DNA of 41,373 bases from a virus. Below, in pieces: positions 1,001 through 39,391 of the stretch (positions within the stretch are counted from its first letter, which is position 1; every line of letters begins with the position of its first letter). Under the pieces are notes generated by a model. That model saw only the letters and a program-made list of their open reading frames with translations, was not told the DNA's origin and made no database searches. The stretch is from positions 1 to 41,373 of the IMG/VR virus record IMGVR_UViG_3300033388_001953; one strand, given 5' to 3'. The translations under genes were made by a program, and so were the position numbers.

Positions 1001-1039
1001 AAAAACATTACTGAAAACAATAACATAGTCGCAGTAATG
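1001..1039 (-). terminator. Candidate intrinsic terminator of the minus-strand RNA
   Basis: Minus strand CATTACTG (1039-1032) and CAGTAATG (1013-1006), loop of 18, followed by TTTTT (1005-1001). The stem is perfect but AT-rich, so strength is uncertain. Confidence 0.5.
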
Positions 1040-1164
1040 CCGTCTAAGAACCTCACCTCAAATAATTATAGGGCTATTTTACAGACACCGTACAGAGATT
1101 GCTCTCTCCTTGTACGGTGGCCACCGAAGTGGACTTAAGCCCGATGCCGTAGCAGAGCGGGTAC
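1001..1164 (-). ncRNA. Candidate structured small RNA with three tetraloop hairpins
   Basis: Read on the minus strand from the promoter at 1199-1171, a transcript starting near 1164 would fold into: hairpin 1 (1161-1140) CCCG..CGGG with an inner UGC-UACG-GCA; hairpin 2 (1132-1121) CCAC-UUCG-GUGG; hairpin 3 (1119-1086), an 8-9 bp outer stem CACCGUAC/GUACGGUG, a 4-nt bulge and an inner AGAGA-GCAA-UCUCU; then an unstructured spacer and an 8-bp stem CAUUACUG/CAGUAAUG followed by UUUUU. Two UNCG loops closed by C-G and one GNRA loop appear only when read on this strand. No ORF fills it. Function unknown; antisense to any plus-strand read-through from the helicase operon. Confidence 0.65.
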
Positions 1165-1170
1165 ATTTCT

Positions 1171-1199
1171 ATATTAGCACCTTACCTAAAGACTGTCAA
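1171..1199 (-). promoter_or_regulatory. Sigma70-type promoter of the candidate RNA
   Basis: Minus strand TTGACA (1199-1194), 17-base spacer, TAATAT (1176-1171). The -35 matches consensus fully and the -10 matches TATAAT at four of six positions. Predicted start about 1164. Confidence 0.7.
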
Positions 1200-1224
1200 A
1201 CTACAGATAGTCAGTCCTTTTTTT
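1191..1224 (+). terminator. Intrinsic terminator-like hairpin, plus strand
   Basis: GACTGTC (1191-1197) pairs with GATAGTC (1206-1212) with one G-U pair, loop of 8, then AGTCC and seven Ts (1218-1224). It would end transcription coming from the helicase/lipoprotein/451-858 genes before the terminase block. It overlaps the -35 of the divergent minus-strand promoter. Confidence 0.6.
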
Positions 1225-1231
1225 ATTTTCC

Positions 1232-1261
1232 TTGACAGCACTTAAAAACTATGTCTACAAT
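1232..1261 (+). promoter_or_regulatory. Sigma70-type promoter with its start point at the ATG of 1268
   Basis: TTGACA (1232-1237), 18-base spacer, TACAAT (1256-1261), then exactly six bases to ATG at 1268. A transcript starting at the usual distance begins on or next to the A of the start codon, so the message would be leaderless. No ribosome site precedes the ATG. Confidence 0.7.
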
Positions 1262-19795: not shown

Positions 19796-21178
19796 ATGGC
19801 AGCTACTTTATTTCCACAACCTTTAGTCCAGTTTTTAGATGATAACGGCGACCCGTTAAGTGGTGGTAAGGTTTATTTTTATGAACCGGGGACATCAACA
19901 CCTAAAGACACTTACACCGACCAAGCCGCAGGGACGGCTAACGCCAATCCTGTTATATTGAATAGTAGGGGAGAGGCTGCTATCTGGTTGAATGGTTTTT
20001 ACAAGGTTAATTTAACAGCTTCGGATGATACGCAAGTAACTGGCTACCCAGTAGACAACCAAAGTAGTGGTAGTGCTTCTACCTCAACAACACAGACGGA
20101 ATGGACAAGTCCGGGGGATACGCCTACCTACATATCATCCACTTCCTTTAGTGTACCCGGAGACCAATCAACAGTCTATCAGGTAGGCCGTAGAATTAAA
20201 TGTACGGTTGGAGCTTCAACATATTACGGCGTTATCACGGTAGTCGCATATACCACCTTAACGACTGTTACAATATCTCTTGATTCAGGCAGTCTTACAT
20301 CGAGCCTTACCGTTGTTGATGTAGGTATCTTGACCGTTACGAATCCCTCAGTACCAGAGAGTGTGCGTAGCGTGGCCTCTGCTACGGCATCAGGCCACGC
20401 TACAAACGCAGGGCAGATACAGGGTGGCCTCATGGTCTTTGATGATGATACAGGGGCGGCAGACGCTTATGTGGGGACTCTCGCCCCAGCTATAACGGCT
20501 TATGGCGAAGATATGGAGGTCTGCATAAAGATAGTCAATGCGAATACCGTTGTCGCTCCAACTCTTAATCTAAACGCTCTCGGAGCTAAGACTATCAAGA
20601 GGATAAATGGTGCGGCCTTACTTGTCGGAGACTTGCCAGCGGATCATTATGCTGTGTTGAGATATGACGGTACGGACTTCATCTTAATGAACCCTGCGCT
20701 ACATACTCACCTAGACGCTAACAATGGGGGTGTAATTCTACAGGTCGTAAACAAAACCGATGGTGCAGTAAATACGGGGACGGGTACAATCGCAACGGCT
20801 GACGGTGTTCCTCAGAATACTGATGGCGATCAATATATGGAGCTTGCTATAACTCCAAAAAGCACTACTAATAAGCTGAAAATAGATATAGTTTGTAATG
20901 TAGCTGCTACAATAAATGATAAGGTATCTGTTGCTCTTTTCCAAGATTCCACAGCAAGTGCTTTAGAGGCTGTAACGCAACGTCCACAAAATTCTAACGA
21001 GATACTATCTTTCGCATTCACACATTACATGGCAGCAGGGACTACAAGCGAAACGACTTTTAAGGTTAGGGCAGGTGCGCAAAGTGCAGGAACTACAACC
21101 TTTAATGGTGAATCTGGAGCAAGGATATTCGGTGGTGTAATGGCTTCTAGTATAACTATAACAGAAACCCCAGCGTAG
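19796..21178 (+). CDS. Tail fibre / receptor-binding protein (460 aa)
   Basis: Start follows AGGAGAATAATC. The N-terminal FPQPLVQFLDDNGDPLSGGK and YFYEPGTSTPKDTYTDQAAG with ANPVILNSRGEAAIWL (residues 6-65) is the well-known virion-attachment opening of many podovirus fibres and spikes. The middle (about 95-200) is Thr/Ser-rich beta structure; from about 205 (LMVFDDDTGAADAYVGTLAP) a second beta module begins, and the C-terminal domain (about 310-460) resembles small beta-sandwich adhesin tips. A perfect RNA hairpin sits at codons 191-203. Confidence 0.85.
   Translation: MAATLFPQPLVQFLDDNGDPLSGGKVYFYEPGTSTPKDTYTDQAAGTANANPVILNSRGEAAIWLNGFYKVNLTASDDTQVTGYPVDNQSSGSASTSTTQTEWTSPGDTPTYISSTSFSVPGDQSTVYQVGRRIKCTVGASTYYGVITVVAYTTLTTVTISLDSGSLTSSLTVVDVGILTVTNPSVPESVRSVASATASGHATNAGQIQGGLMVFDDDTGAADAYVGTLAPAITAYGEDMEVCIKIVNANTVVAPTLNLNALGAKTIKRINGAALLVGDLPADHYAVLRYDGTDFILMNPALHTHLDANNGGVILQVVNKTDGAVNTGTGTIATADGVPQNTDGDQYMELAITPKSTTNKLKIDIVCNVAATINDKVSVALFQDSTASALEAVTQRPQNSNEILSFAFTHYMAAGTTSETTFKVRAGAQSAGTTTFNGESGARIFGGVMASSITITETPA
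20367..20403 (+). repeat. 12-bp perfect inverted repeat with UACG loop inside the fibre gene
   Basis: GTAGCGTGGCCT (20367-20378) and AGGCCACGCTAC (20392-20403) are perfect complements. Between them UGC-UACG-GCA can extend the stem with a UNCG loop. The 15 bases CTCTGCTACGGCATC here also occur in hairpin 1 of the candidate minus-strand RNA (1157-1143). The codons read SVASATASGHAT, so part of the match may reflect protein constraint. Confidence 0.7.
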
Positions 21179-39154: not shown

Positions 39155-39184
39155 TTGACAAACACCTCACAACCATAGTATAGT
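39155..39184 (+). promoter_or_regulatory. Promoter of the replication operon
   Basis: TTGACA (39155-39160), 18-base spacer, TATAGT (39179-39184); start predicted near 39191, giving a leader of about 200 bases before the initiator gene. Confidence 0.75.
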
Positions 39185-39190
39185 AGTAAT

Positions 39191-39391
39191 CATCTCGATA
39201 GTCCATGAGGTCGGCAATGGCCTCATGGATAACAATTAACCCCTTTTGCAGAGGACTGTATATGAAATACCCTACACATTTTAAATTTACCGAAGTAGTG
39301 CCAAGGACGGTTAACCCCGTACAGGACTCATATACTCCTGTCTGCAACCTTGGCACTACTTTTGTACGTTTGAAATCTTAAGAGGTTTATT
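39191..39391 (+). ncRNA. Structured leader of the replication operon
   Basis: Two strong folds. Hairpin A, 39201-39230, is a 12-pair stem (two G-U) with loop GGCAAU. Structure B, 39293-39361, has a 14-bp perfect closing stem (AAGTAGTGCCAAGG with CCTTGGCACTACTT) enclosing two inner hairpins: ACGG/CCGT (39307-39320) and ACAGGA/TCCTGT (39321-39341), a three-way junction. It is followed by UUUUG, a weak U-run, so an attenuator is possible. A 39-codon ORF overlaps it. Confidence 0.65.
39262..39381 (+). CDS. Leader ORF of the replication operon (39 aa)
   Basis: ATG 39262 with GCAGAGGACTGTAT upstream; stop TAA 39379-39381 just before the ribosome site of the initiator gene. The middle codons form structure B of the leader, so ribosomes translating it would unfold the 14-bp stem. 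This arrangement would allow translation-controlled attenuation. The peptide sequence itself is unremarkable. Confidence 0.5.
   Translation: MKYPTHFKFTEVVPRTVNPVQDSYTPVCNLGTTFVRLKS

Follow-up and report, generated by a model that had tools for sequence, protein, structure and literature searches.

The viral record analyzed here, which we call the window (the whole stretch of DNA, 41,373 bases), carries a 114-base terminal repeat and is therefore probably a complete circular genome. Its replication genes are separated from its terminase genes, which were called by PHROGs and are ordinary TerS and TerL, by a region without a convincing gene (859-1231). On the minus strand this region carries a predicted RNA that is preceded by a promoter, TTGACA-N17-TAATAT (1199-1171), and followed by opposite-strand genes only, with no sense-oriented gene downstream (Table 1). 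An initial annotation, made from the letters alone, had described this promoter, the position between replication and terminase genes and the lack of a convincing gene, and all three descriptions hold.

Table 1. Features of the RNA locus and its immediate surroundings in the window
Feature	Position	Strand	Basis
-35 element TTGACA of the RNA promoter	1194..1199	-	sequence; TTGAC at the same place in relatives
-10 element TAATAT, extended (TG before), N17 from the -35	1171..1176	-	sequence and relatives
5' end GUA, G1164 the predicted +1; consensus GUN	1162..1164	-	conservation and distance from the -10
Hairpin H1: CCCG-[CUC]-UGC-UACG-GCA-[U]-CGGG	1140..1161	-	109 viral motif stretches, outer-stem covariation, tetraloop class swaps
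Conserved spacer CUUAAGU (family consensus ..AAG[AU]C)	1133..1139	-	family alignment
Hairpin H2: CCAC-UUCG-GUGG	1121..1132	-	99% paired; each of the four pairs covaries in the family
Hairpin H3: CACCGUACA-[a]-GGA-(GAGAGCAA)-UCU-[c]-UGUACGGUG; loop consensus GANNNCAA	1086..1119	-	family comparison; covariance-model match ends at 1086
AU-rich stretch between H3 and the terminator; shorter in most relatives	1042..1085	-	sequence reading
Terminator-like stem GGCAUUACUG..CAGUAAUGUU and UUUUU	1001..1041	-	fold -11.1 kcal/mol, z -1.6
Terminator-like hairpin at the end of the upstream operon; stem overlaps the -35 of the RNA	1191..1222	+	sequence reading, fold
Divergent promoter TTGACA-N18-TACAAT, for the small ORF at 1268 and the terminase genes	1232..1261	+	promoter scan

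The minus strand packs the hairpins UGC-UACG-GCA, CCAC-UUCG-GUGG and AGAGA-GCAA-UCUCU into ~50 nt. No other triplet of UNCG/GNRA hairpins within 120 nt occurs on either strand of the 41-kb record, and only 1 in 20,000 shuffles of the locus contained as many such hairpins. The 85-nt core folds with a z-score of -2.8, and the whole 166 nt with a modest -2.0. The UACG and UUCG caps are as initially annotated, whereas the third hairpin, taken to be capped by GCAA, is, from comparison with the family, better read as a 9-bp stem that continues in a short inner stem and is closed by a loop of 8 nt, GAGAGCAA, than as a simple tetraloop hairpin. The annotated stem with a UUUUU tract is also present (CATTACTG/CAGTAATG followed by TTTTT, 1041-1001), but because it is AT-rich and has an 18-nt loop it is only a moderate terminator. 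The RNA is a single, non-repeated unit. A plus-strand RNA would fold almost as well, but the stable tetraloops, the promoter and the relatives all favor the minus strand. ARAGORN returned no match for a tRNA or tmRNA. The apical 14-nt sequence of H1, CTCTGCTACGGCAT, is repeated exactly within a coding gene at 20377-20390, probably by chance.

Several other features of the window were recorded. A 17-codon ORF on the plus strand (961-1014) has a very good ribosome-binding site (AGGAGGTGTGTTATG) and overlaps the minus-strand RNA at its 3' end. The window has 11 promoters with an exact TTGACA versus 1.8 expected from shuffles, and the intergenic ones are placed at sensible gene starts. At 39155-39381, just ahead of a DnaD-like gene, a strong promoter (TTGACA-18-TATAGT) precedes a leader rich in hairpins and an ORF of 39 aa; the end of this ORF overlaps a terminator-like branched hairpin, and the arrangement could be an attenuator. 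The -10 box lies only 6-7 nt ahead of the ATG at 1268, 36259, 38300 and 38137(-), and these short predicted distances suggest leaderless mRNAs in the phage or its host. An IS1-family-like DDE transposase (PF03400, 38282-39130) is flanked by two direct TCAAACTGACCC stretches and is a possible insertion in the phage.

The RNA proved difficult to place. It reached the gathering score of no family in Rfam 15, nor did its relatives, so the statement that no known RNA class is recognizable still stands. An exact 24-mer of the core was absent from the viral contigs searched. Among terminase relatives, the closest contig (90% TerL) aligns only from ~1711 and ends short of the RNA, and the others lack it; the neighboring small ORFs and DnaB, used as baits, yielded no close relative. 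These protein baits were unproductive because the phage has no close relative that covers the RNA region. Blastn against a phage collection returned short, chance-level matches only and no named phage with the full RNA, E. coli genomes gave no match to the RNA, and a TerL scan of genomes produced one weak MAG contig. The exact H1 pattern was found in 0 of 398 Pseudomonadota genomes because H1 varies in chromosomal copies.

Relatives emerged from a distant blastn search against plasmids. Two 28-nt matches (E=0.2) were both intergenic and both ran into further hairpins and a terminator. The stretch common to the window and these matches, CCCGCUCUGCUnCGGCAUCGGG, occurs as a pattern in 109 viral stretches versus an estimated expectation of well under one by chance, and the 28-nt match led to over 130 distinct phage and plasmid loci. 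In the fuller relatives H1 is followed by a spacer (..AAG[AU]C), H2, H3 and a terminator, with a linker before the terminator that is usually shorter than in the window. The stem of their H3 is long and variable, has a bulge on the 5' side and leads through a short inner stem to a loop of 8 nt (GANNNCAA).

About 100 other phage loci apparently have H1 alone, as a leader or within tRNA arrays, without H2 and H3. Phage arrays at L128, L153, L185, L192 and L146 combine H1, tRNAs or tRNA-like sequences and other recurrent structured modules in changing order, and Rfam names none of these modules except the tRNAs. In L259 a phage-encoded permuted tmRNA (RF04321, 3035-3233) lies downstream of H1, with a sub-threshold match to an abiF-like RNA between the two. 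AbiF RNA (RF03085) resembles the present RNAs in being linked to a phage-defense (abortive infection) protein, but it is a different RNA linked to a different protein family and has no match in the window. H1 is tandemly duplicated in L099 (6870-6920) and in several related phages, the first copy having a CUCG loop.

MazF and PemK are textbook type II toxins restrained by protein antitoxins. Eight full-length copies of the RNA (L088, L090, L109, L168, L171, L183, L245, L292) lie directly behind a gene of this family. The linked protein matches Pfam PF02452 above the cut-off (1.1e-13), and its predicted structure retrieves MazF structures at Z up to 13.7 (6kyt_K, 111 aligned, rmsd 2.6). The listed structure matches of the PemK model do not include the type III toxins ToxN and CptN, although such a list does not exclude them, and neither PADLOC nor NCBIfam names the subfamily. 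In many loci the RNA starts ~17-25 nt past the pemK stop codon, and in many the -35 TTGAC of the RNA falls inside the last pemK codons.

The start of the RNA can be predicted from its relatives. A G three bases upstream of the H1 motif is conserved (92%; 78 distinct loci), and in 31% of 132 distinct relatives the end of a -10-like hexamer falls exactly 6 nt upstream of this G, versus ~1% at most other offsets. From this conservation and the spacing peak we infer that transcripts of the family start at the conserved G, directly before H1; transcription itself is inferred. H1 thus placed exactly at +1 could instead be a cis-acting 5' element, for example a put-like antiterminator or an RNA stabilizer or processing handle, that heads phage non-coding transcripts and of which the pemK loci are merely users. 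Many H1 copies do stand ahead of tRNAs or a permuted tmRNA, and in the put RNA of HK022, too, a phage transcript carries hairpins at its 5' end or close to it, putL being likewise a two-stem RNA that closely follows its promoter (PMC9378689). We took put-like antitermination seriously. It is weakened by the lack of sense genes downstream of the window RNA, as HK022 put acts in cis on RNA polymerase and lets it read through terminators into sense genes (PMC9378689). Full-length copies, furthermore, have their own terminator and often, as in the window, only opposite-strand genes downstream, and at least one copy (L185) sits within a tRNA array without a correctly placed -10 box. A cis-acting element also leaves the pemK partner, the conservation of H2 and H3 and the GANNNCAA loop unexplained. 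We consider it the main rival, albeit an unlikely one.

The proposed structure is supported by compensatory change. When outer stem positions of H1 were freed in the search, the versions CCTG/CAGG and TCTG/CAGA appeared, and when apical positions were freed, the UGC/GCA stem was kept with UNCG, GNRA, CUUG, GUUA and other tetraloops. H1 is 99.6% paired, with 9 double changes versus 0.9 in shuffles. Across the family alignment both sides change in 21 of 23 pairs, the covariation score is 0.753 versus 0.222 in shuffles, and double-change cells number 183 versus 56. This alignment is model-fitted and hence biased towards its own structure; shifting it by 1-3 columns lowers the score to 0.13 or less. 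Absence of covariation in related phages had been named as an outcome that would refute the RNA, and the result is strongly positive.

A covariance model (R1) was built from 23 pemK-linked RNAs only, with no orphan RNA included. It matches the window at 1165-1086(-) with 71.9 bits (E=1.8e-15) and finds nothing below E=0.45 in 85 other viral loci (649 kb, mostly terminase-related). The window RNA has the H1 with its 3-nt/1-nt internal loop, the AAG[AU]C-type spacer, H2, and an H3 with a GANNNCAA-type loop (GAGAGCAA) and a 3' single-nt bulge. Sequence comparison firmly places the predicted RNA of 1164-1086(-), together with its 3' terminator region, in a family with the architecture H1-H2-H3-terminator that has no Rfam entry. 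The modest energy of the whole 166 nt might be taken to indicate a functionless chance fold, a reading that the model match and the strong covariation refute and that we regard as having virtually no prospect of being right.

The association with pemK also holds when the search starts from the protein alone. One linked PemK was used to search 388 genomes of the phylum and 385 of a class, the two draws overlapping, and 21 distinct pemK loci were found. A strict H3 (the GANNNCAA loop and an outer stem of at least 7 pairs) lies downstream in 18 of the 21, versus 98 of 20,000 control windows, with the caveat that the first nine loci were already known when GANNRCAA was relaxed to this loop consensus. 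Model R1 matches an RNA behind 20 of the 21 loci, including five of the six that are absent from the model, and the RNA accompanies none of 13 other PemK/MazF loci in the same genomes. Across the 388 genomes R1 has nine matches, of which seven adjoin pemK (all seven are in the model) and two do not (L337 and L340, chromosomal copies). In bacteria, plasmids and some prophages, these comparisons establish, predicted RNAs of the family lie immediately downstream of a PemK/MazF-family gene; the specificity of the linkage for one PemK subfamily, the start-site geometry of the RNA and the predicted MazF fold of the protein are likewise established. A type II protein antitoxin upstream of pemK was considered and rejected. 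The upstream neighbors vary among loci (dnaN, LysR-type, repressors and others), and the gene order therefore gives no evidence of a conserved protein antitoxin. No RNA partner of PemK was found in the literature searched, which did not cover subscription papers.

Linkage this tight, with the RNA starting so close behind the pemK stop, is also what one would expect if the RNA were the 3' part of the pemK transcript, bound or cut by PemK for autoregulation, and if the orphan phage copies were functionless remnants. The RNA has its own promoter, and orphan copies in unrelated phages retain the full structure, promoter and start site, which remnants would lose; we give this explanation little credence.

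The window RNA is such an orphan copy, as no PF02452/PemK gene is found anywhere in the record. Model R1 matches 13 further phage or plasmid loci at E<1e-6 without an adjoining pemK (L280, L237, L100, L164, L308, L176, L121, L099, L272, L243, L298, L087 and L114), although H3 may be incomplete in the weaker ones. A search of twelve of these records (L280 to L087, leaving out L114), several of them fragments, found no PemK. The presence of the RNA without pemK in many phages, together with its compact, sRNA-like layout with a terminator, would also suit a host-directed regulatory sRNA unrelated to toxin neutralization that, for example, titrates an RNA-binding protein or base-pairs with mRNAs. 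The conserved nucleotides occupy structured or loop positions and not a free seed, and the chromosomal RNA is tied to one PemK subfamily and not to other PemK loci, which makes such a role improbable in our judgment. The initial annotation had also allowed for packaging or host control. A packaging RNA (pRNA) was rejected: the phage has ordinary TerS/TerL, and the relatives are not tied to the terminase, occur on either strand and have many different, unrelated gene sets as neighbors. The evidence leans towards host control, via the PemK/MazF link that the annotation could not see; no more specific function had been named.

In the reading that we propose, this RNA partners an RNA-cutting PemK in the manner of an antitoxin, and the phage copy serves to decoy a host toxin; we hold this proposal to be evenly poised between right and wrong, with toxicity, inhibition, decoy role and transcription all inferred. 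The PemK of the linked subfamily would be an RNA-cutting toxin, although no experiment shows its toxicity. The RNA would bind the toxin via H1, with its CUC/U internal loop, and via the H3 loop GANNNCAA and so block it, again with no experiment that shows the inhibition. The window copy would most likely be trans-acting, mimicking the antitoxin so that a PemK-RNA system encoded by the host, which is unidentified, stays silent during infection or lysogeny. We infer this because an RNA takes the place expected of an antitoxin gene beside a MazF-fold protein, as it does in type III systems (PMC5086642), because the orphan layout is of a trans type (own promoter, own terminator, nothing sense downstream) and because pseudo-ToxI of phage PhiTE, for which this strategy has been shown, offers a precedent (PMC3475682). 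Against an antitoxin, most phage loci apparently have H1 only, so H1 may serve a separate function; pemK is missing beside two chromosomal copies; and the RNA is neither repeated nor upstream of the toxin gene, unlike known type III antitoxins.

Type III systems (ToxIN, CptIN, TenpIN) resemble the pemK loci in combining a MazF/Kid-fold toxin with an adjacent non-coding RNA and no evident protein antitoxin (PMC5086642). Their antitoxins are tandem repeats that lie upstream of the toxin and form pseudoknots (PMC5086642), whereas the pemK-linked RNA, modeled here with nested pairs only, has three hairpins, is present once without repeats and follows the toxin gene under its own promoter. The linked toxin matches Pfam PemK/MazF by sequence. 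The toxin gene is adjacent in the pemK-linked relatives and absent from the window. The RNA may work like a type III antitoxin, but it lacks defining features of the type (a tandem array, an antitoxin upstream, one shared promoter with a terminator between) and we do not class it as such. MazEF/PemIK type II systems share the toxin superfamily (PF02452, MazF fold) and differ in that the pemK loci have an RNA beside the toxin gene and no conserved MazE/PemI-like gene. Pseudo-ToxI (PMC3475682) is an RNA mimic borne by a phage without the toxin gene; like the window RNA, it corresponds to RNAs that elsewhere accompany a toxin of the MazF fold. RNAs of the window type differ from it in being full-length, having their own promoter, being widespread in environmental phages and being unrelated in sequence, and their activity is only inferred.

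We tentatively suggest, at somewhat less than an even chance, that a PemK/MazF without a protein antitoxin and with a downstream three-hairpin RNA constitutes an undescribed protein-RNA toxin-antitoxin class in Pseudomonadota, and that many phages, including that of the window, carry the orphan RNA or only its 5' hairpin, sometimes in tRNA arrays, as antidotes to such systems. If true, a PemK subfamily with an RNA as its conserved neighbor would represent a new, non-repetitive and multi-hairpin kind of protein-RNA toxin system, and 'solitary' pemK genes would be explained. RNA mimicry against toxins, known from laboratory-selected PhiTE mutants, would then become a widespread natural form of counter-defense.
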